From contig NZ_MPJW01000271.1 of assembly GCF_001945525.1 (NCBI RefSeq), forward strand, positions 1 to 34,562: a DNA stretch of 34,562 bases, read 5' to 3'. The notes beneath the pieces were generated by a model. That model did not search any database. It was not told where the DNA came from and saw only the letters and a program-made list of their open reading frames with translations. This stretch comes from Ileibacterium valens (GTDB lineage Bacteria > Bacillota_I > Bacilli_A > Erysipelotrichales > Erysipelotrichaceae). Positions 18,265 to 34,405 of the stretch are shown one piece after another; within the stretch, counting starts at the first letter, position 1; each line of letters starts with the position of its first letter. The position numbers and the translations under genes were made by a program.

Positions 18265-19143
18265 TCAGACTTCTTCATCAATATCCGGTACCGTAAAGCC
18301 GCGGCCCCTGACTTCATGCACGTCTGTCACCACAATAAAAGCCTGAGAATCAATTTCATTAATGGCATCTTCGACCTGAGAGTATCGTCTTGAAGGCATC
18401 ACGCACATTAAAACCGGACGTTCCTGATTGGTCCAGGCTCCGGTAGCCGGTAAAATCGTAACCCCGCGCGAAATCTGCGTAAGCAGAAAATCGCGGATCT
18501 CTTTCCAGTGATCGGAAATAATCATGACATTTTTAGCTGCGTTGCTTCCAGCGGTCGAGGTCCAGTTGATCGCATAACTCATCGCGAAAATGGAAAGAAG
18601 ACCCGTTAAAAACGAATTCAGCCCATACACATATAATCCGGCAAGAATCGTCAGCGAATCAACGACCATTACGCAGGTATTCAATCGGACATGACTTAAT
18701 CGATGCAAAATCAAAGCCGGAACGTCCATTCCGCCTGTACTTCCTCCAACCCGAAAGACCAGACCCAAACCAAAACCCATGATAAGTCCCGCATACAAAG
18801 CCGAAAGCAAAGGATCCACATGAGAAAAAGCCGTTGTATCAAGGGTAGAAAAAAGGGAAATGAAAATCGGATAACAAAGCGATGAGATCAAAGATCGAAG
18901 GGCAAACCGATTCCCTAAAACTGCCCATCCTAAAATAAATAAGGAGATGGTCAGAATATTAATCAGATTCACCTGAGAGATGGGCAGAAAGTGACCCAGG
19001 ACCATAGCCACTGTAGCGGTTCCACCTGAAAGAATATTTCCAGGAAGAATAAAGAAACTGACAGAAAAAGCGACCAGCAGGTTGCCGACAAGGATCATTA
19101 TCAAATTTTTTAACCAGTATTTTTCCTGCAATTTCTTTAGCAT
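18265..19143 (-). CDS. YitT-family membrane protein (DUF161/DUF2179), copy 1
   Basis: The start used gives 292 residues beginning MLKKLQEKYWLKN. GGGAGGAG lies five bases upstream, and the longest frame's start (19182) would fall inside the predicted promoter. Five or six helices cover about residues 10-205, with FILPGNILSGGTATVA in the first loop and GLGLVFRVGGSTGGMDV, which are typical of YitT. The C-terminal ~90 residues form the soluble DUF2179 domain (RQVEDAINEI-like core, FIVVTDVHEVRGRGF). Family function is not established. A paralogue lies at 30995-31903. Confidence 0.88.
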   Translation of the reverse strand: MLKKLQEKYWLKNLIMILVGNLLVAFSVSFFILPGNILSGGTATVAMVLGHFLPISQVNLINILTISLFILGWAVLGNRFALRSLISSLCYPIFISLFSTLDTTAFSHVDPLLSALYAGLIMGFGLGLVFRVGGSTGGMDVPALILHRLSHVRLNTCVMVVDSLTILAGLYVYGLNSFLTGLLSIFAMSYAINWTSTAGSNAAKNVMIISDHWKEIRDFLLTQISRGVTILPATGAWTNQERPVLMCVMPSRRYSQVEDAINEIDSQAFIVVTDVHEVRGRGFTVPDIDEEV

Positions 19144-19180
19144 GTAATCTCCTCCCAAAACTAAAAAGCACTCTTCTATC

Positions 19181-19209
19181 ATTGTATTGAGCTTTTTTCT
19201 TCATTCCAA
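19181..19209 (-). promoter_or_regulatory. SigA-type promoter of YitT copy 1
   Basis: On the minus strand TTGGAA (19209-19204) and TACAAT (19186-19181) are separated by 17 bases. Transcription would begin near 19174, about 30 bases before the ATG at 19143. This also argues against the longer reading-frame start. Confidence 0.6.
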
Positions 19210-21960: not shown

Positions 21961-22476
21961 ATGATTTATCTTGCAAGTGATTCAAAAAGCCGTAATCTGC
22001 TTGATCTGCTGATTGGACGGCTTCAAAACGACTGTCAAATCAAGCTTCAGGATGAAGATTTTGAAATTCTCGAAGCGGATGTTCCCCCTGGCAGAGATCA
22101 GGATTTTAAGGATCAGGATTCAGAAGAAATGAGTCTGTTTTCCCTGTCCTGTCTGATGGCTGAAAAAATACGAAAGAATCCACAGGTTCATCGCGGAGTC
22201 TTTGTCGATTCCTATGGCGTTCTGCCTTTTATAGTGAGCAGTAAATTTCCAAAAATTATCTGCGCACTGGCCAGCGATGAACACAGCGCAAAAATGACCC
22301 GCGATCACAACAATGCCAATCTGATCACTTTAGGATCGAAACTGGTCGGAGAAGATGTCGCCTTCTCGATCATCAAACGGTTTTTACTCGGAAAATATTC
22401 TGGAGGCAGACATCAGATCCGCATCAATATGCTCAATGCATTAACACCAGAAGAAAACAGCGAGGTCAGTTTATGA
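21961..22476 (+). CDS. lacA: Galactose-6-phosphate isomerase, LacA subunit
   Basis: A 171-residue RpiB/LacAB-family subunit. With LacB it converts galactose-6-phosphate to tagatose-6-phosphate. The end is a strong LacA match: MTRDHNNANLITLGSKLVG, then KYSGGRHQIRINMLNAL. VFVDSYGVLPFIVSSKFP replaces the usual IDAYGAGPFMVATK. It is about 30 residues longer than typical LacA, with extra acidic sequence near residues 40-60. The only purine-rich site (AAAGGAAATTT) lies about 15 bases upstream, and the same 11-mer also occurs 30 bases earlier (21911 and 21941). The gene overlaps lacB by four bases. Confidence 0.87.
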   Translation: MIYLASDSKSRNLLDLLIGRLQNDCQIKLQDEDFEILEADVPPGRDQDFKDQDSEEMSLFSLSCLMAEKIRKNPQVHRGVFVDSYGVLPFIVSSKFPKIICALASDEHSAKMTRDHNNANLITLGSKLVGEDVAFSIIKRFLLGKYSGGRHQIRINMLNALTPEENSEVSL

Positions 22477-22982
22477 TCATTGCAGTCGGGTGTGATCACA
22501 TTGTCACTGAAATCAAGGACGATTTAAAAAAGCTTCTGGAATCAAAAGGCCATCAGGTACTCGATGCAGGAACATACGATAAAGAACGAACTCACTATCC
22601 GATCTATGGCCGCAAAGCTGCTCATTTAGTCACTGAAAACAAAGCAGACCGGGCAATCGTTCTTTGCGGAACCGGAGTAGGTATCTCCAATGCGGCTAAT
22701 AAGGTCAATGGTATTCGCTGCGTTCTGGCCAGTGATCCAGTCCTGGTTCAATATGCCAGAAAGAATCTGGATGCCAATGTTCTGGCTTTTGGGGGCCGGG
22801 TTATCGGTCCTGGAGTGATCGAGGATCTGGTTGATGTTTTTCTTGAAACTCCATTTGAAGAAAACAAACATACCGATTTGATCAGACAGATCGATCAGCT
22901 GCGCTTTGAAACAGATTTAAGTCATTCAGAACTGTTTGATCCTTTCCTAAATGACTGGGAAGCGGGAATTTATCACGACTGA
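22473..22982 (+). CDS. lacB: Galactose-6-phosphate isomerase, LacB subunit
   Basis: A 169-residue LacB subunit, starting IIAVGCDHIVTEIKDDLKKL with AGTYDKERTHYPIYG and catalytic-site Cys65 in VLCGTGVGISNAANKVNGIR. LacB-specific residues and normal length are seen. It partners LacA in the tagatose-6-phosphate route for lactose or galactose taken up by a PTS. No lacC (kinase), lacD (aldolase) or PTS gene lies next to it. It ends in a strong terminator, so this lacAB is an isolated pair. Confidence 0.93.
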   Translation: MIIAVGCDHIVTEIKDDLKKLLESKGHQVLDAGTYDKERTHYPIYGRKAAHLVTENKADRAIVLCGTGVGISNAANKVNGIRCVLASDPVLVQYARKNLDANVLAFGGRVIGPGVIEDLVDVFLETPFEENKHTDLIRQIDQLRFETDLSHSELFDPFLNDWEAGIYHD

Positions 22983-23362
22983 GCCATTCCATTCCACCTA
23001 TATTTCATCCTGTATTTTTTATTGTTTCCTATGCCATCACGTTTATCAGGTTTCGTCTGATCATTGTCACAGACGAAACCTTTCTTTTTTGCCTGTTTTA
23101 TTCTCCTGCTGCTTCTGCTATCGCTTGATTTGTGATTTTACTTTCGCAACTCTTCCATTTATTCTAAAAAGGATACTGTTTTATAACTTCTATATAGGAT
23201 TTCTATCGTATTTCTTTGAAAAGATTTCTTTGATCTATGATATGACTGATTATTCATTCTGACTTATCAAATAATTTTATCTGGCTTCAGTTCAGATTTT
23301 TTATAGATCAAACATAAATAATGACAATTAATCGTTTACGATGAATACTGCGAGGTATGCCT
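22983..23362. other. Gap between lacB and addB
   Basis: It contains the lacB terminator and then an AT-rich, T-biased stretch with no gene. It should hold the addBA promoter. TTGAAA followed after 16 bases by TGATAT (about 23215-23242) is a possible but weak candidate. Confidence 0.45.
23048..23090 (+). terminator. Terminator of lacAB
   Basis: AGGTTTCGTCTG (23048-23059) pairs perfectly with CAGACGAAACCT (23070-23081), followed by a T-rich tract. It is 65 bases past the lacB stop. Confidence 0.93.
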
Positions 23363-26119
23363 ATGAAACCAATTACTATTCTTGCTCCGGGTACTCTGCA
23401 TCTTCCTCTATACGCAAAGATGTATGAAATGCTCGGAAACACGACCAACATTCGCCTGTTAAGTCTGGATTCCTGGCTTCGCGAGCAGGTTGAATTTCCA
23501 ATTCAGAATAATCTTTCGCTCTTATATCAATACAGGAAGCAATTATCTTCATTATCTGCGGCGAATTCCTTTTTTGAATCGCGTGAAGACTACGACTTTT
23601 TAAGAGACTGTCTTGACTTTATGTCCAAATTTTTCCTGTATGAACTTTCGATAGAAGACCTTCCCCAGAATACAAAACGGGATAAGGATCTTCTTGAAGT
23701 CATTTCATTATTGAAGGACATCCCAAGAATCGAGCAGGCTTATGTTTCAACCGATTTTGAAAGGCTCGATCTGTCCGGTCTATGGATTCTCGATAAAAAT
23801 TATTCCATTGAAGAGATGAAGATTTTAGAGCGCTTAAAAAAAGGAGGCGCCAGAGTCTTAAAATCCATCGACGAAATTTCCGGATTCTCCATGGATGCAG
23901 CAAATCCGTCAAAAGATTTAAAAACCAATCCAGATAAGGATCCACTTTCAGAGAGCCTTCTACCCATCAACCGGTACTACTGGTCAACGAGCAATCCGCG
24001 CACTCAGATGGAAATCATTGCCGATACGATCATTACTGAAAACATGAGTGCGGAAGATATTTTTATTGTTTTAAGCCGGCCAGAAGATGCAAGTGTGCTT
24101 TCTCAGGTCTTTGAAGCCAGAAAAATCCCATTGACCTTAATGAGTGAACCAAGTATTTCACCTGTTCTATCCCAATGGAAAGCCGCTCTTTTATTTGTTG
24201 CTGACAAGTCCAGAGAAAATTTGATGAATCTGCTTAAGGAACTTTATCCGCAAACGAGTACTCAGTTAAGAAACTATATGGATCTCTTCCCGGAAGGTTC
24301 AGATCTTGAACATCTCGAGTATACGCCCAACCCGCTGATCAGTGAATTCGAATTTGAAAACATGCGGTCGATGGAACTTCAGATGCAGCCCTGGCTGCCC
24401 ATCTTTGAAAAAATGAAAACCTGGAAAGCCAACGATGCCACCATGCTGGATATTGGTGACTTGATTCAGAAAGCCAATCCCTCTCCCTCTGAAGATGACA
24501 TCCGCATTTTTGATGGAATCAGCCGGCTGTATGGCGATGTTCGAAGTGAAATTCATTCTGAACTGGATTTGCCGCTGCTCATCCGTCATCTGGATTCATT
24601 GTATCCAAACTCAGCGCTCTCAGAATGCACAGGAGTTCTGGCTGGAAGCAAAAAAGAGATTTCTCCATTACATAAAACCGTCTTCTATACGGGTGCAGAT
24701 GCGGCTCATTTTCCTGCCTTCTCAATGAATGGCGGAATTTTCGATGAAGCTTACATGCAGAAGATCAAAAAAGGATATCCTTCTCTTTCAGATCGCCTGT
24801 CATTGCAGCGAAATGCTCTGTTTCATTCCCTGGAAATCCCCAAAGAACTATATGTGATGGTTCCTCAGGCCGATTATGAGGGAAAAAGCAGCGATACGAG
24901 TTATGAGATGTTTACCTGGATGAATGCTCATCCTAAATTTCAGCACTGGAAAGATTCTTCCTGGTACATCAAACCGGACTTTTCCTTATCTGAAGAAATC
25001 AGCTCGCAGCTCTTTTTTCCGGAGAAGACTTTTAATGCCTCTCTTTCTTCACTCAACGCCTATGATATGTGTCCATTGAAGCACATGCTTCAGTACGGAC
25101 TCAAACTCAAAAAGCCTTATGTTCTTGAAGAGCGTCTGGAAGTCAAAGCTGAAATTTTAAAGGATGTCATCGAATCCTCCAATCTCTGGTATCAAAGACC
25201 CGTCTGGGCTTTATCAAAAGAAGAGGTTCGGTTTCTGGTTTCAAGACAGTTTGAATTTGCCCGTAAAGTCTTTAAGGATAAAACCGAAGCCCTGGAAATT
25301 CTTGAACTGGAATATGTTCAGAAAATTTTAGAAATGGTTCGGATTTTAAGACCCATCACCAAAAAACTCAACGCCAGTCTCATCCCCGATCAGGCGAAAA
25401 TAAAAATTTCTGAAAACAAGGATGGAATGCAAATGGATATTGAGGGCTTTGTCAACCGCAGTTCAAAAAACCGAACTCCATTTTTGTTAGTCAACCCGGA
25501 AAATGGAGAAACATCAGGCAGCTGTGAAATCACTCCTGATTCGGATCAGAATGACCGCTCTGCTTTTCATGAAGCAATGGCTGCCCTCGATGTGAGCCTT
25601 TCACAAAAACCCGTCCAGAATAAAGCCTTCAGCATCTCGATGGGACGGGGTAAAAAACCGGTTTGTGCCAATGAGTTTACTCATGAACAGCTCGATCAGG
25701 AATTTATTACTCAGTTTTTAAAAGATGCCATCAAAGGTCAGAATATGCCTGAAACGGATACCTTTGAAGGAGAAGTCATTCGCAAAAAGACGCCTTCCTA
25801 TGAAAAAACGGTGGAACAGGCCAGAAGCGCGGCCGATGATTTCATCAAGAGCCTTTCCCATGGCTGTGTTCTTCCGCTGCATAAAGCCAATGCCTGTAAA
25901 TTCTGCGCTTTTAAAAGCATCTGCCGAAATGGATCACAGGAAAGAACTCAGGAATCCACCAGACAGGCATTTGCCGAATACGATCGAAAAAACGAACTCG
26001 CCGCTAAAAAAGCAGCCAAAGCAGATCATAGGCATCCAGTCGAAGCCTCTGATCACGAAGATCAGGACTTAAATGAAACAGAAAGGGTGAACAGGATCGA
26101 TGCCAGTCCAGTTATCTGA
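23363..26119 (+). CDS. addB: AddB subunit of the AddAB helicase-nuclease, nuclease site degenerate
   Basis: A 918-residue AddB protein; ATG 23363 is preferred over 23357 because GAGG lies seven bases upstream. The family is usually near 1150 residues. The N-terminus lacks a Walker A motif (ILAPGTLHLPLYA), as in RexB-like forms. Iron-sulphur cysteines are kept: Cys570 in YDMCPLKHML and Cys845-x2-Cys848-x5-Cys854. The nuclease motifs, however, are altered: GRIDR is GFVNR with Asn698, and the D-Y-K of IDYKSG is N-P-E (Asn711, Glu713). QLxxY is also unrecognisable. Nuclease activity of this subunit is therefore probably lost. It overlaps addA by 20 bases. Confidence 0.85.
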   Translation: MKPITILAPGTLHLPLYAKMYEMLGNTTNIRLLSLDSWLREQVEFPIQNNLSLLYQYRKQLSSLSAANSFFESREDYDFLRDCLDFMSKFFLYELSIEDLPQNTKRDKDLLEVISLLKDIPRIEQAYVSTDFERLDLSGLWILDKNYSIEEMKILERLKKGGARVLKSIDEISGFSMDAANPSKDLKTNPDKDPLSESLLPINRYYWSTSNPRTQMEIIADTIITENMSAEDIFIVLSRPEDASVLSQVFEARKIPLTLMSEPSISPVLSQWKAALLFVADKSRENLMNLLKELYPQTSTQLRNYMDLFPEGSDLEHLEYTPNPLISEFEFENMRSMELQMQPWLPIFEKMKTWKANDATMLDIGDLIQKANPSPSEDDIRIFDGISRLYGDVRSEIHSELDLPLLIRHLDSLYPNSALSECTGVLAGSKKEISPLHKTVFYTGADAAHFPAFSMNGGIFDEAYMQKIKKGYPSLSDRLSLQRNALFHSLEIPKELYVMVPQADYEGKSSDTSYEMFTWMNAHPKFQHWKDSSWYIKPDFSLSEEISSQLFFPEKTFNASLSSLNAYDMCPLKHMLQYGLKLKKPYVLEERLEVKAEILKDVIESSNLWYQRPVWALSKEEVRFLVSRQFEFARKVFKDKTEALEILELEYVQKILEMVRILRPITKKLNASLIPDQAKIKISENKDGMQMDIEGFVNRSSKNRTPFLLVNPENGETSGSCEITPDSDQNDRSAFHEAMAALDVSLSQKPVQNKAFSISMGRGKKPVCANEFTHEQLDQEFITQFLKDAIKGQNMPETDTFEGEVIRKKTPSYEKTVEQARSAADDFIKSLSHGCVLPLHKANACKFCAFKSICRNGSQERTQESTRQAFAEYDRKNELAAKKAAKADHRHPVEASDHEDQDLNETERVNRIDASPVI

Positions 26120-29100
26120 AGTCCAAAAACGAATCGTCGATGAACGTGGCAAAAACATTCTCGTTTCTGCCAGCGCCGGAAGCGGAAAAACGACCGTTCT
26201 GGTTGAGCGGCTGATCAAGCAGGTCATCATAGACCGCATTCCGGTCTCTGATATTCTGGCGATGACCTTTACTGAAGATGCAGCCAGAGAAATGATCATT
26301 CGTCTGAAGCAGCGCCTGCAGATGGAAGATGTAAATGATTCATATATTCAAAACCAGCTTTCACTGCTTGAGACGGCATCCATCTCAACCATTCATGGAT
26401 TCTGCCTGAACATCCTTCAGCAGTTTTATTATCGTTTAAACCTTCCTTATTCCATGATCCAGAAAGTCGATAATGATATTCTGGCCCAGCAGGCAAGAAC
26501 GAGAGCTTATGACCGGCTGCTTAAAAACGTGAATCCTTCTTCTTATGCCGCGCTGAAGATCTACATGGAATCATGCAAAAAAAATGAAAACGACTTGCAG
26601 CTGCTTATTTTACATCTGCTTGAAATTGCACAATCAAAACCGGACCCGGACGCCTGGCTTTCCATGTGTACGCTGGGCATGGAAGATGAAAAAGTGGAAA
26701 AAAGCTTTCTGGACTATTTCAGACTGCGGATTCTTGCTTTAAGGGAAATCTTTGAGCAGATGAGAGAAAATGTCGAAAATCTCTCCTTTCCCAAAGCTCA
26801 GAGCAAGGATGAATGGTCCTTACTGTTTGAAGAAAAAGCCCGCTGCATGAATCAGTGCCTGAAGGATATCGATGATCTGAATTATCCAAAATTCAGACGG
26901 GATTTTTTAAACTATATTTCCGGAACCGGAAAATTCACGCCAACCATCGCCAAACAGTCCTTTAAAAATCTTTGCGATGACTACAAGGCGCTGCAGGCGG
27001 TTGTAGCAGAGCATCTGTTTCTGGAAGAAGACTATCAACAAGCGCAGCAGCAGATTCGTCCTTTGCAGAGTACGCTTGTCGAAATGGCCAGAACTCTGAA
27101 GGATTACTATCAGGAAGAAAAGCGAAAGATGGGATTTATCGACTTTTCCGATATGGAACAGTTTGCCTATCAGATTTTATCGATGGAAGATATCGCAAAT
27201 GAAATCCGCGAACAGTATCAGGTCATCCTGGTTGATGAATATCAGGATACCAACGATCTGCAGGAAGCGATTATCTCTTCCATTGCCCGCAAGAACAATG
27301 TCTTTCGAGTCGGAGATCTCAAGCAGTCCATTTATGGCTTTCGTCAGGCCAGACCCGAACTGATGAAAGGCTTTATGGACCATCCAGATGCCAACTCCGA
27401 AGTCATCTATATGGATGAAAATTATCGTTCCAAGGACGCGTTGATCGAATTTTCCAACCTGTTCTTTAAGACGCTGATGAATGCGCCAGGCTGCAAGCCT
27501 CAGTTTTCAGATGAAGACGCCGCAAAAACAGGAAGTGAATCTCAGAAATCAGGGGTGCAGAAACCAGTTCGTTTTTTGTTTTCACAATATGCCAAAAGCG
27601 ATTCGGATGATGAAGAATCTGAAGAAGGAACTAAATCAAAAGGGCCAAACCTGGTTGAAGCGCGTTCCTTACACAAGAAAAATCGTTTTGACTGGATCGC
27701 AAAAGACATTCAGAAAAAGATTGAAGAAGGCTATTCCTATCGGGATATCGCCATCTTAAGCCGGACAAGCAGCAACCATCAGGAAATCAGAGATGTTCTT
27801 GAAACCTGGTCCATCCCATCCATATCCCGTTTAAAATCCGGATTCTATACCAATCAGGCCATTCAGATTATCCTGTCCGCTTTGCGGATTCTGAAAAATC
27901 CAAATGATGATATCGCCTTAATGGCTGTGCTTTGTTCACCGATTGGCAAGCAAAGACAATCCACAGTCGTAAAAGCAAGCCTGAACCGGGATGAGAGTCA
28001 GTCTTTGTATAACGCCTTGCGCTTTCATCCAATGATGAAGTTTTATGATGAAATGAGCACCTGGAAAAAACTTTCCCTGTCTGCCATTTTACGAAAACTC
28101 TATGCCTGGAATGATTTCTATTACAATTTTACGACGGAGCAGGATAAGACCAACCTGGATCTGTTACTGGAAAAAGCCTCCAAAGCGCAGTCGAGTATGG
28201 ATCTGGATGAATTTTTAGAACAGTCATCTCTTGAATCGGATTTCAATAAGACCGGTGAAGCCATCCCCTTTGGCCGTGAAGATGATGTAGTAAAAATTTC
28301 TACGATTCATTCAAGTAAAGGTCTGCAGTACAAGATTGTTTATCTTCTTTCAGATGACCGTGATTCCGATTTAGGAAGCAATGATCCAATTTTAATCGAC
28401 AGTGATTTAGGCCTGTCCTTTCATTCACTCAACGAGAACTGTCATGCTCTGAGTCCGACCAAATCCAGACTGGCTTTTCAGACCCGGCGTTTTCTTGAAG
28501 ATCAGCAGGAAAAAATGCGGCTTTTGTATGTCGCCGCCACCCGGGCTGAAGAAGAACTGATTTTTGTCGACAGCATTAAGGCGCTTGAGGACTATGAAGA
28601 ACCTTTAAGTATTCGCACCCTGTTAAATAAGAAGGGATTCAGCGGCTGGCTGCTCAATACGGCTTATGAAAACAGAAACAACCCGAAATTCAAGCTCGAA
28701 TACGATGAAGTCGATCAGATTGTTCAACGACCGGTTGCCAAATCAAAGAAGTATTTTCGCAAGGAGCTGGCCGTTTACAACAAGCCAGTCAAAGCGATTA
28801 CTTCTTCGACAGCCTCCGGAGCTAAAGCCAATCGAACCTGGAATCCGATCAGCTTTACTTCTTCAGCCAATATGGAGCGCGGAACCCTGTTTCATGAACT
28901 GGCCGCCAGGCTTTCCTATCCATATTTAAAAGAAGAATTCCTTGGCGAGGCGAAAAAAGCTGGATTTAATCTCGATGAAAATGATGCCAGACAGTTTTTG
29001 CAGCTGAATCATTCAGCTGAATTCAAAAAGTGGATGAATGGCAAACATCAATTTGAACTTCCTTATTCAGTCAATGAAAACGGGGCCTATGTTCATGGCT

Positions 29101-29375
29101 TTATGGACTTTGTCGCCTTTGATCAGGATACGATTCATATTGTTGACTTTAAAACCGACTCGGCCTTTGATATGGAATCCTTAGGAAGAAAGTACATCAA
29201 CCAGTTATCTACCTATGAGCAGGCCATGGCTCAGATCTATCCGGATAAAAAGGTTAGAACCTATATTTACTCCTTCCATTTAAGTGAGCTCGGTGAACTG
29301 CAGCCACAGAAAAATCTTCCATCCCAAACAAAGGAAGATTCTAAAAAGTCAGCTCCCTCAAAACGAAAAGCCTGA
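26100..29375 (+). CDS. addA: AddA helicase-nuclease
   Basis: A 1091-residue UvrD-like helicase with a C-terminal nuclease. Walker A is ASAGSGKTT (residues 24-32). Other helicase motifs are TFTEDAAREM, STIHGFC, Walker B VILVDEYQDTNDLQ, GDLKQSIYGFRQA, STIHSSKGLQYKIVYL and RLLYVAATRAEEEL. The nuclease keeps its catalytic set: GFMD (Asp1003), DFK (Asp1016, Lys1018) and QLSTY (Gln1035, Tyr1039). With AddB it resects double-strand breaks and loads RecA. It is about 140 residues shorter than Bacillus AddA. A lysine-rich tail ends the protein. AddA alone may therefore carry the complex's nuclease. Confidence 0.95.
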   Translation: MPVQLSEVQKRIVDERGKNILVSASAGSGKTTVLVERLIKQVIIDRIPVSDILAMTFTEDAAREMIIRLKQRLQMEDVNDSYIQNQLSLLETASISTIHGFCLNILQQFYYRLNLPYSMIQKVDNDILAQQARTRAYDRLLKNVNPSSYAALKIYMESCKKNENDLQLLILHLLEIAQSKPDPDAWLSMCTLGMEDEKVEKSFLDYFRLRILALREIFEQMRENVENLSFPKAQSKDEWSLLFEEKARCMNQCLKDIDDLNYPKFRRDFLNYISGTGKFTPTIAKQSFKNLCDDYKALQAVVAEHLFLEEDYQQAQQQIRPLQSTLVEMARTLKDYYQEEKRKMGFIDFSDMEQFAYQILSMEDIANEIREQYQVILVDEYQDTNDLQEAIISSIARKNNVFRVGDLKQSIYGFRQARPELMKGFMDHPDANSEVIYMDENYRSKDALIEFSNLFFKTLMNAPGCKPQFSDEDAAKTGSESQKSGVQKPVRFLFSQYAKSDSDDEESEEGTKSKGPNLVEARSLHKKNRFDWIAKDIQKKIEEGYSYRDIAILSRTSSNHQEIRDVLETWSIPSISRLKSGFYTNQAIQIILSALRILKNPNDDIALMAVLCSPIGKQRQSTVVKASLNRDESQSLYNALRFHPMMKFYDEMSTWKKLSLSAILRKLYAWNDFYYNFTTEQDKTNLDLLLEKASKAQSSMDLDEFLEQSSLESDFNKTGEAIPFGREDDVVKISTIHSSKGLQYKIVYLLSDDRDSDLGSNDPILIDSDLGLSFHSLNENCHALSPTKSRLAFQTRRFLEDQQEKMRLLYVAATRAEEELIFVDSIKALEDYEEPLSIRTLLNKKGFSGWLLNTAYENRNNPKFKLEYDEVDQIVQRPVAKSKKYFRKELAVYNKPVKAITSSTASGAKANRTWNPISFTSSANMERGTLFHELAARLSYPYLKEEFLGEAKKAGFNLDENDARQFLQLNHSAEFKKWMNGKHQFELPYSVNENGAYVHGFMDFVAFDQDTIHIVDFKTDSAFDMESLGRKYINQLSTYEQAMAQIYPDKKVRTYIYSFHLSELGELQPQKNLPSQTKEDSKKSAPSKRKA

Positions 29376-30994: not shown

Positions 30995-31903
30995 TCAGGC
31001 AGCCGATTTTGCCGCTTCTTTTTTCTGATTGGCTTTTTTCAGATCAGAATACTTTGCCGGATAAAAGCCGGTTCCACGAACCTGGCGGACATTGGAGATG
31101 ACCACAAAGGCATCAGGATCAATATCAAAAACCGCTTTCTGCATTGATGCAAGATCCTTCTTTCTGAAAATGGAATGAACGGCATACCCTTCCTGTTTGA
31201 GATAACCGGATTTGACATGGATCAGACTGGCTCCTTTATCCTGATCATGAAGAATGCATTCAAGAACTTCTTCAGATTTTGGTGTATAAACCAGCATTTC
31301 CACGGCATGCTTCCCGCTTGAAAGAATCTGATTCATGGTCACATAGGTTAATGCCATATAAATTACGCCATATGAAATGCTTAAAATACTGGCCTGTGAA
31401 ATCTGCAAAACCAATAAAACGACATCCATAGCCCACATGGTGGCAGAAACCGGAAGTCCGAATTTCTTTTCAAGAATAATTGGAGGAATATCTAACCCAC
31501 CGGAGCTCGCATCCGCCTGAAGGATCATTCCCAGACCACATCCCATTAAGACACCAGCCAGAATCGCATAAAGCATCGGTTCATTTCCATCAAAAGCCTG
31601 GCCAAGCCCTGCAGTCAGGTTAAAAAAGATTGGATAAACAATAGCTGAGATGAGTGTACGTCCGGCAAATTTGATACCCAGGCAGAGCAGTCCAAGAATA
31701 AAGCAGATCCAGCTGATTGAAGTCACCGCAAGCGGATATGGAATGTTCAGAAAATGGTTCAGAACCAAAGCCAGGCCCGTTGATCCTCCGGAAATAAAGT
31801 TTCCTGGAATAATGAAAGCATTCACCGCTGCCGCAATTAAAAAGTTTCCAGCCAGTACCGGCAGCAATTGAATCAGTGTTTTCTTTACATCCATTTTCTT
31901 CAT
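30995..31903 (-). CDS. YitT-family membrane protein (DUF161/DUF2179), copy 2
   Basis: A 302-residue paralogue of the 18265-19143 product: same plan of about five or six helices (GNFLIAAAVNAFIIPGNFIS, GCGLGMILQADASSGGLDIP) and a C-terminal DUF2179 domain ending DAFVVISNVRQVRGTGF. A lysine/alanine-rich tail follows. AAGGAGG lies seven bases before the ATG. Family function is unknown. The gene is divergent from a Crp/Fnr regulator, with an FNR-like box in the shared upstream region, suggesting control by it. Confidence 0.9.
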   Translation of the reverse strand: MKKMDVKKTLIQLLPVLAGNFLIAAAVNAFIIPGNFISGGSTGLALVLNHFLNIPYPLAVTSISWICFILGLLCLGIKFAGRTLISAIVYPIFFNLTAGLGQAFDGNEPMLYAILAGVLMGCGLGMILQADASSGGLDIPPIILEKKFGLPVSATMWAMDVVLLVLQISQASILSISYGVIYMALTYVTMNQILSSGKHAVEMLVYTPKSEEVLECILHDQDKGASLIHVKSGYLKQEGYAVHSIFRKKDLASMQKAVFDIDPDAFVVISNVRQVRGTGFYPAKYSDLKKANQKKEAAKSAA

Positions 31904-32917: not shown

Positions 32918-34405
32918 ATGAATACTTTTAACTTAGAAAAGTTGTCAAAAATAATAAAAGATAAAAGAAACTCGATGCAGATGACGAAAGCGGACCTTTC
33001 CAAAAAAACTTCGATCAACCGTGGAATGATTTCACGGATCGAAAAAGGCGAATACACTCCAAGCATTGATCAGCTTGTCGCTCTTTCGGCAGCTCTGGAT
33101 TTTAATCCGGCAGACCTTTTTATAAATCCTGATCAAAAAAAGGAAGAAACTTCGTCAAAAGCAGTCAACCGTAAATACAACATTGCCGTAGCAGGTACTG
33201 GCTATGTGGGGCTTTCGATTGCTACTTTGCTTGCTCAGCACCATCATGTCACAGCTGTTGACATTATTCCGGAAAAAGTCGATCTGATTAATCAGAGAAA
33301 ATCACCGATTCAGGATGAATACATTGAAAAATACCTTTCGGAAAAAGAACTTGACCTTACTGCAACTCTGGATGGTGAAGAAGCTTATAAGAATGCTGAC
33401 TTTGTCGTCATCGCTGCACCAACCAACTATGATTCAAAGAAAAACTACTTTGACACAAGTACAGTGGAAAATGTCATTGAGCTGGTGATGAAAGTGAATC
33501 CAGAAGCCATGATGATCATCAAGTCCACCATTCCAGTAGGCTACACGGAAAGTGTCCGTAAAAAATTTGGAACGGATCGCCTGATCTTCAGCCCGGAATT
33601 CCTTCGTGAATCCAAGGCTTTATACGATAACCTTTATCCTTCCCGTATTATTGTCTCCTGTGATGAAAACTCCAGAGAAGAAGCAGAACTCTTTGCTTCC
33701 TTACTTCAGGAAGGGGCTATCAAAGAAGATATTGATACCCTGTTTATGGGATTTACAGAAGCCGAAGCAGTTAAGCTTTTTGCCAATACTTACCTGGCTC
33801 TTCGCGTATCCTATTTCAACGAACTCGATACCTATGCTGAAAGCAAAGGTCTGAATACAAGAGATATTATTGATGGAGTCTGTCTGGATCCGCGTATTGG
33901 TACTCACTACAACAACCCAAGCTTTGGTTACGGCGGCTATTGCCTTCCAAAAGATACCAAGCAGCTGTTAGCCAATTACAGCGACGTTCCTCAGAATATG
34001 ATGAGTGCCATTGTTCAGTCCAACCGGACCCGCAAGGATTTCATCGCTGATCGTGTCCTTGAACTGGCTGGAACCTATGAAGCCAATAGTTCTTATTCCC
34101 GCGAAAAGGAAGATTCTTCCAATAAAGTGGTTGGTGTTTATCGTCTGACCATGAAAGCCAACAGTGATAACTTCAGACAATCAAGCATTCAGGGGGTCAT
34201 GAAGCGAATCAAAGCTAAAGGAGCTCAGGTCATCATTTATGAGCCAACATTGGAAGATGGAACAACATTCTTTGGAAGCCGTATTGTCAACGATCTGAAA
34301 AAATTCAAGAAAATGTCTGATTCCATCATCGCTAACCGCTATGAAAGTGTACTTGATGATGTTGAAGACAAGGTCTATACCCGTGATCTTTTCCGCAGAG
34401 ACTAA
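32918..34405 (+). CDS. XRE-type HTH domain fused to UDP-glucose 6-dehydrogenase
   Basis: A 495-residue fusion. Residues 5-68 form an XRE helix-turn-helix ([20 protein letters not shown] then EKGEYTPS). After a short polar linker, a full UDP-glucose dehydrogenase follows: NAD Rossmann GTGYVG (93-98), [16 protein letters not shown] (224-231), Lys286 in [12 protein letters not shown], and catalytic Cys342 in [14 protein letters not shown]. The last is the form seen in Ugd and HasB-type enzymes, which make UDP-glucuronate for capsules. GGAG lies eight bases before the ATG, and no internal ATG, GTG or TTG with a ribosome site precedes the dehydrogenase. Thus the two parts should be made as one protein. 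No capsule genes are in view; an IS follows 31 bases past the stop. Confidence 0.93.

Follow-up and report, generated by a model that had tools for sequence, protein, structure and literature searches.

The addB and addA genes of the window

The window, i.e. the whole stretch of 34,562 nucleotides of Ileibacterium valens DNA (contig NZ_MPJW01000271.1) analysed here, carries addB (23357-26119, + strand) directly upstream of addA (26100-29375, + strand), the start of addA overlapping the end of addB by 20 bases, and the same pairing is present in the relatives that together with I. valens make up the clade described below. The addB reading frame is open throughout its 920 codons and encodes a helicase-like N-terminal part, a nuclease-like Fe-S domain and a charged tail beyond residue 865 (residue numbers are counted from the first ATG of the ORF). 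Two adjacent and co-directional genes for isomerases of the LacAB/RpiB family are located just upstream of addB (21961-22982).

AddA (1091 amino acids), which was identified firmly by both Pfam and NCBIfam, comprises a UvrD-like helicase and an intact PD-(D/E)XK nuclease. Alignment places its catalytic set at His932, Asp1003, Asp1016-Phe-Lys1018 and Gln1035-Leu-x-x-Tyr1039 (28893-29216, + strand), which bears out the preliminary description of a complete set in this subunit. Wherever the sequence of a clade member covers that region the set is kept, and our comparison revealed no derived change near these residues that would mark the clade.

The window AddB was identified weakly by Pfam and NCBIfam, through fragments of PDDEXK_1. 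Its TIGR02773 score of 24.7 bits did not reach the cut-off of 903.7; this cut-off is not diagnostic, since intact Erysipelotrichaceae AddBs from the class search also score below it. With the window AddB alone as query, phmmer gave no AddB match among the PDB sequences, but the family profile did match AddB. The clade AddBs are approximately 250 residues shorter than B. subtilis AddB, and intact AddBs of the same family are equally short.

Loss of catalytic residues and retention of the Fe-S cysteines

Full AddB sequences were obtained by searching first 60 related genomes and subsequently all 273 genomes of the family, and the main alignment comprised 33 sequences, 26 from relatives with an active-type AddB ("active relatives") and seven from clade members with readable sequence (the window and six others). 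In the 26 active relatives the nuclease motifs read GxIDRxD ... DYK ... QLxxY, and the invariant positions are, in window numbering, His602, Asp700, Asp703, Asp713, Lys715, Gln724 and Tyr728. The window AddB lacks His602, Asp700, Asp703, Asp713, Lys715 and the QLxxY helix of the PD-(D/E)XK domain. Specifically, Lys602 (25160-25162) replaces the histidine, GFVNR (residues 697-701; 25445-25459) stands for G-x-I-D-R with Asn for Asp700, and VNPENG (residues 712-717; 25490-25507) stands for the DYKS motif with Asn for Asp713 and Glu for Lys715, all on the + strand. At the site of the missing helix (25523-25540, + strand) the window has unrelated residues, and relatives have a deletion. The preliminary description had already noted these two motifs, the loss of both aspartates and the lysine, and the lack of QLxxY, and we confirm all of this; the helix is deleted or unrecognisable in the clade alignments.

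Among the seven readable clade members the column of His602 holds K/P/E/A/S, that of Asp700 N/T/A/E, that of Asp703 S/T/N/D, that of Asp713 N/A/D/P and that of Lys715 E/T/G/A, and the Gln and Tyr of QLxxY are deleted or unalignable. The four predicted Fe-S ligands, one far upstream and three clustered, are all present in the window AddB and invariant in 33/33 AddBs: Cys572 (25070-25072, + strand), which is kept in relatives of both kinds, and Cys847, Cys850 and Cys856 (25895-25924, + strand; the Cys856 codon is 25922-25924). Thus the earlier statement that the cysteines are retained holds, but its numbering (570, 845, 848 and 854) does not and appears to have been counted from the second Met; likewise, the span given for the altered site, 25433-25920, includes GFVNR and VNPENG but stops just before the Cys856 codon and omits Cys572. 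Adding 15 AddBs from other Bacilli changed neither the catalytic loss nor the retention of the cysteines.

Comparison with B. subtilis AddB, which had been proposed as a check, gave the same picture. Profile alignment to 3u44_B paired its GRIDRVD with GYIDRID of the family, and the Asp713 column, Asn in the window, fell on chain residue 961, which is Ala (RIVAYKSS). We take this Ala961 to be the D961A nuclease mutation of the crystallised protein; the window AddB would thus naturally carry Asn at the mutated position. For the ionic-latch and Chi-contact residues of B. subtilis AddB, the similarity to these short AddBs is too low for a reliable alignment. Moreover, PDDEXK_1 matches 12 active relatives from end to end (E-values 1e-31 to 1e-39), and matches in the clade are weak or fragmentary (about 1e-4 to 1e-9).

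Two further observations concern the same domain. Position 745 (25589-25591, + strand) is Tyr in all active AddBs and an invariant Asp in the clade, i.e. a clade-specific new constraint. Furthermore, three Erysipelotrichaceae AddBs, L018 (G009), L027 (G008) and L226 (G151), have the full set of nuclease motifs and have lost the Fe-S cysteines; because of this reverse case the cysteines and the nuclease motifs can be regarded as separable in loss.

Predicted structure

AlphaFold2 models of AddB were built from nine sequences. The full model (mean pLDDT 66) is fair in the N-terminal part and weak in the C-terminal domain, and the nuclease-like domain modelled separately has a mean pLDDT of 60. 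For the full model the best PDB match is B. subtilis AddB (4ceh_B, E-value 2e-15), the AddB chains matching over approximately 940 columns, and the next match after AddB is RecC (7mr1_C, E-value 1e-10). With the domain model alone AddB chains also rank first, without significance.

Distribution and ancestry

A survey of related genomes, likewise proposed in the preliminary description, places the loss of the AddB active site in eight genomes of one clade, the Allobaculum group of gut bacteria, spanning three genera. Named members of the clade, in addition to I. valens, include Allobaculum mucilyticum 128, Allobaculum sp. Allo2, two Allobaculum-like MAGs, Erysipelotrichaceae bacteria RD49 and OPF54, and Firmicutes bacterium M10-2. 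The AddB of Allo2, the eighth genome, is frameshifted, and those parts of it that can be read have the same loss together with the cysteines; a ninth sequence (G028) has a run of N across the nuclease domain. Elsewhere the motifs are intact: counted as distinct genomes, approximately 140 Erysipelotrichaceae from outside the clade and 58 Bacilli of other families keep them, and Holdemanella is among the active neighbours. On reading of the sequences, the motifs are also intact in L022, L134, L186, L191, L199, L246, L249 and L252.

In a tree based on AddB residues 1-560, from which the nuclease domain was left out, the nine clade sequences are united with a support of 100/98, and the AddA tree separates the same genomes (SH-aLRT 99). 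Hence, the trees suggest that the AddB catalytic residues were most simply lost once, in an ancestor shared by Allobaculum and the other genera of the clade.

Constraint on the degenerate domain

The nuclease-like domain of the clade AddBs has retained its full length, and the frames are open, Allo2 excepted. The identity of the domain is lower than that of the N-terminal part in the pairs G062-G064 (52% vs 65%) and G003-G063 (43% vs 61%), but G190-G191 is an exception (60% vs 56%). In most pairs of active relatives the nuclease domain is the better conserved part, e.g. 72% vs 69% for G210-G213. For G062-G064 we estimated a dN of 0.39 and a dS of 1.19 in the domain (ratio about 0.33) and a dN of 0.29 and a dS of 2.0 in the N-terminal part (ratio 0.15), values that are rough because dS is near saturation. 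As judged from these sequence comparisons, the domain is under relaxed purifying selection, with the constraint weakened and not abolished.

In Allo2, whose genome is a single contig with a low completeness estimate, frameshifts occur in both addA and addB (L067, L087); they are probably due to sequencing error.

RecQ, RecJ and other candidate partners

Full-length RecQ is present in 8/8 clade genomes vs 0/12 close active relatives. Across the family, RecQ exceeds the cut-off in 23 of 268 genomes, i.e. the eight of the clade and 15 others. The association with the degenerate AddB has a Fisher p of 8e-10, which ignores shared ancestry, and since it is confined to one clade it counts as one event. 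RecQ could be ancestral and have been lost in the sister group, and with RecQ in approximately 6% of the genomes outside the clade the two could plausibly coincide on a single branch by chance; we therefore regard the association, as seen in gene content, as suggestive. The RecQ of the window's genome (G000:C1:5578-7377) was confirmed against NCBIfam. The clade RecQs (L271-L279) group together, the M10-2/OPF54 pair without a resolved placement, and that of Allo2 is split. Shorter RecQ/RecS-like proteins (E-value below 1e-20) were found in many relatives and are missing in the clade, which, given the full-length RecQ there, hints at a swap.

Other candidates for a gain specific to the clade were rejected. 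RecJ is present in all 20 genomes compared, clade and active alike, and so is not a clade-specific gain. No dedicated RecD partner for the clade AddAB was found, and RecD2 is present in 20/20 of these genomes, active ones included, which argues against a RecD-like helper gained by the clade. Other ORFs with PDDEXK_1 (approximately 355-395 amino acids; G000 and G062) were set aside as replacement nucleases, since the active G060 and G011 also have them.

A probable single-nuclease AddAB

In B. subtilis AddAB the AddA nuclease cuts the 3' strand and the AddB nuclease the 5' strand. The 3' strand is protected once AddB has bound Chi, and the overhang arises as cutting of the 5' strand goes on (PMC4824097). 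For the clade we consider it probable that AddB is the non-catalytic subunit of an AddAB with a single nuclease, in which it acts as scaffold and scanner. The preliminary description had offered a scaffold as one reading, and our comparison supports it: across eight genomes the predicted catalytic residues are lost, and the cysteines, the N-terminal part and AddA are kept. Its further suggestions, that the complex may cut one strand and that AddB may recognise Chi, are conjectural, the strand polarity being taken from B. subtilis AddAB (PMC4824097). The Fe-S cluster would staple the degenerate domain onto AddB, an idea that goes back to the finding that loss of the cluster impairs dsDNA binding and stability of AddAB (PMC7311471). 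Stapled in this way, AddB could let the complex hold on to a DNA break and lead the 5' strand out of it, and AddA would be the sole nuclease, cutting the 3' strand up to the point at which Chi or an equivalent is recognised. Removal of the 5' strand might then be passed to another enzyme, perhaps most likely RecJ together with RecQ, which are candidates because every clade member encodes both; in B. subtilis, RecJ with RecQ or RecS provides an alternative route of 5' resection (PMC7031210). The full combination, i.e. a RecC-like AddB with an Fe-S clamp, 5' resection handed to RecQ-RecJ, and RecQ gained or kept on the branch on which the active site was lost, is put forward tentatively, and we consider it less likely than not.

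The strongest competitor is that the AddA nuclease cuts both strands as RecB does, AddB being inactive and no helper nuclease being needed. RecBCD indeed runs on one nuclease beside an inactive RecC domain (PMC1185551), RecC follows AddB among the structural matches of the full model, and AddA is intact throughout the clade. In the AddAB structures, however, the AddA nuclease is turned towards the 3' strand, with no evidence of a large movement reported (PMC4824097), and the clade AddA is without a derived change near the catalytic residues that would hint at a new mode; we consider this explanation unlikely, if still worth weighing. Decay of the complex, with AddB becoming a pseudogene and AddAB dispensable, would agree with the pace of the nuclease-like domain, whose evolution, measured against that of the N-terminal part, is faster in the clade than in active relatives. 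But the state is old and common to three genera with intact frames, the only broken copy (Allo2) looks like sequencing error, the Fe-S cysteines, the N-terminal part and the AddA catalytic set have been retained, and dS clearly exceeds dN, so that we give decay very little credence.

It is slightly less credible still that the AddB active site has been rebuilt, with catalytic acids and Lys elsewhere in the domain, an outcome that the preliminary description had regarded as fatal to its claim. Asp745 and Lys811, both invariant in the clade, might be taken as parts of such a site; yet the QLxxY helix is gone, we found no conserved alternative D...(D/E)xK pattern across the AddB domain of the clade, and Asp745 belongs to no conserved (D/E)xK motif. 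Furthermore, the residues at the five classical positions vary among the genomes, which fits relaxation and not replacement. The low identity of the domain is all that speaks for an artefact of assembly or alignment. Independent isolates and MAGs described in several studies are in agreement, and this recurrence in independent assemblies excludes chance and misalignment; we regard an artefact as next to inconceivable.

Relation to known systems

The AddBs of Gram-positive bacteria (B. subtilis, 3u44/4ceh; TIGR02773; RexB in streptococci and lactococci) share with the clade AddB the addB-addA order, the helicase-like N-terminal part, the C-terminal nuclease fold and the four split Fe-S cysteines; the clade AddB differs in being without the catalytic residues and the QLxxY helix. 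AdnAB of mycobacteria is also a two-subunit helicase-nuclease, but AdnA and AdnB each carry a nuclease, unlike the predicted clade AddAB; the structure of the AdnA(D934A)-AdnB(D1014A) mutant has been solved. With RecC of RecBCD (PMC1185551) the clade AddB shares helicase-like and nuclease-like domains, lost metal ligands and, by prediction, a sister subunit that alone cuts. It differs from RecC in keeping the Fe-S cysteines and in having AddA, not RecB/RecD, as partner. Since the clade AddB is clearly AddB by descent, its nuclease loss is independent of that of RecC.

Rigden (2005) suggested that AddAB resembles a stage before inactivation of the RecC nuclease and that the ancestry of RecBCD includes an AddAB-like stage (PMC1185551). 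The clade would represent a RecC-type inactivation that happened independently, in bacteria that are alive today and in part cultured, with the Fe-S ligands still present. It also separates two possible roles of the Fe-S cluster that have been difficult to tell apart, as structural staple and as catalytic helper, having kept the first without the second, and the three relatives with active motifs and no cysteines show the opposite. The clade provides a natural experiment on whether AddAB requires two nucleases. In our literature search we came across no natural AddB described as having an inactive nuclease; most subscription papers (the Cromie phylogeny; Yeeles/Dillingham) were outside its coverage, and an earlier mention is possible.

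Other genes of the window

At 32918-34402 a Cro/C1-type HTH (residues 13-67) is fused to a UDP-glucose/GDP-mannose dehydrogenase, which is an unusual fusion. Finally, the window has a gene for a YitT-type membrane protein at 18265-19182, as identified by Pfam, and, as judged by the look of its sequence, a second one at 30995-31903.
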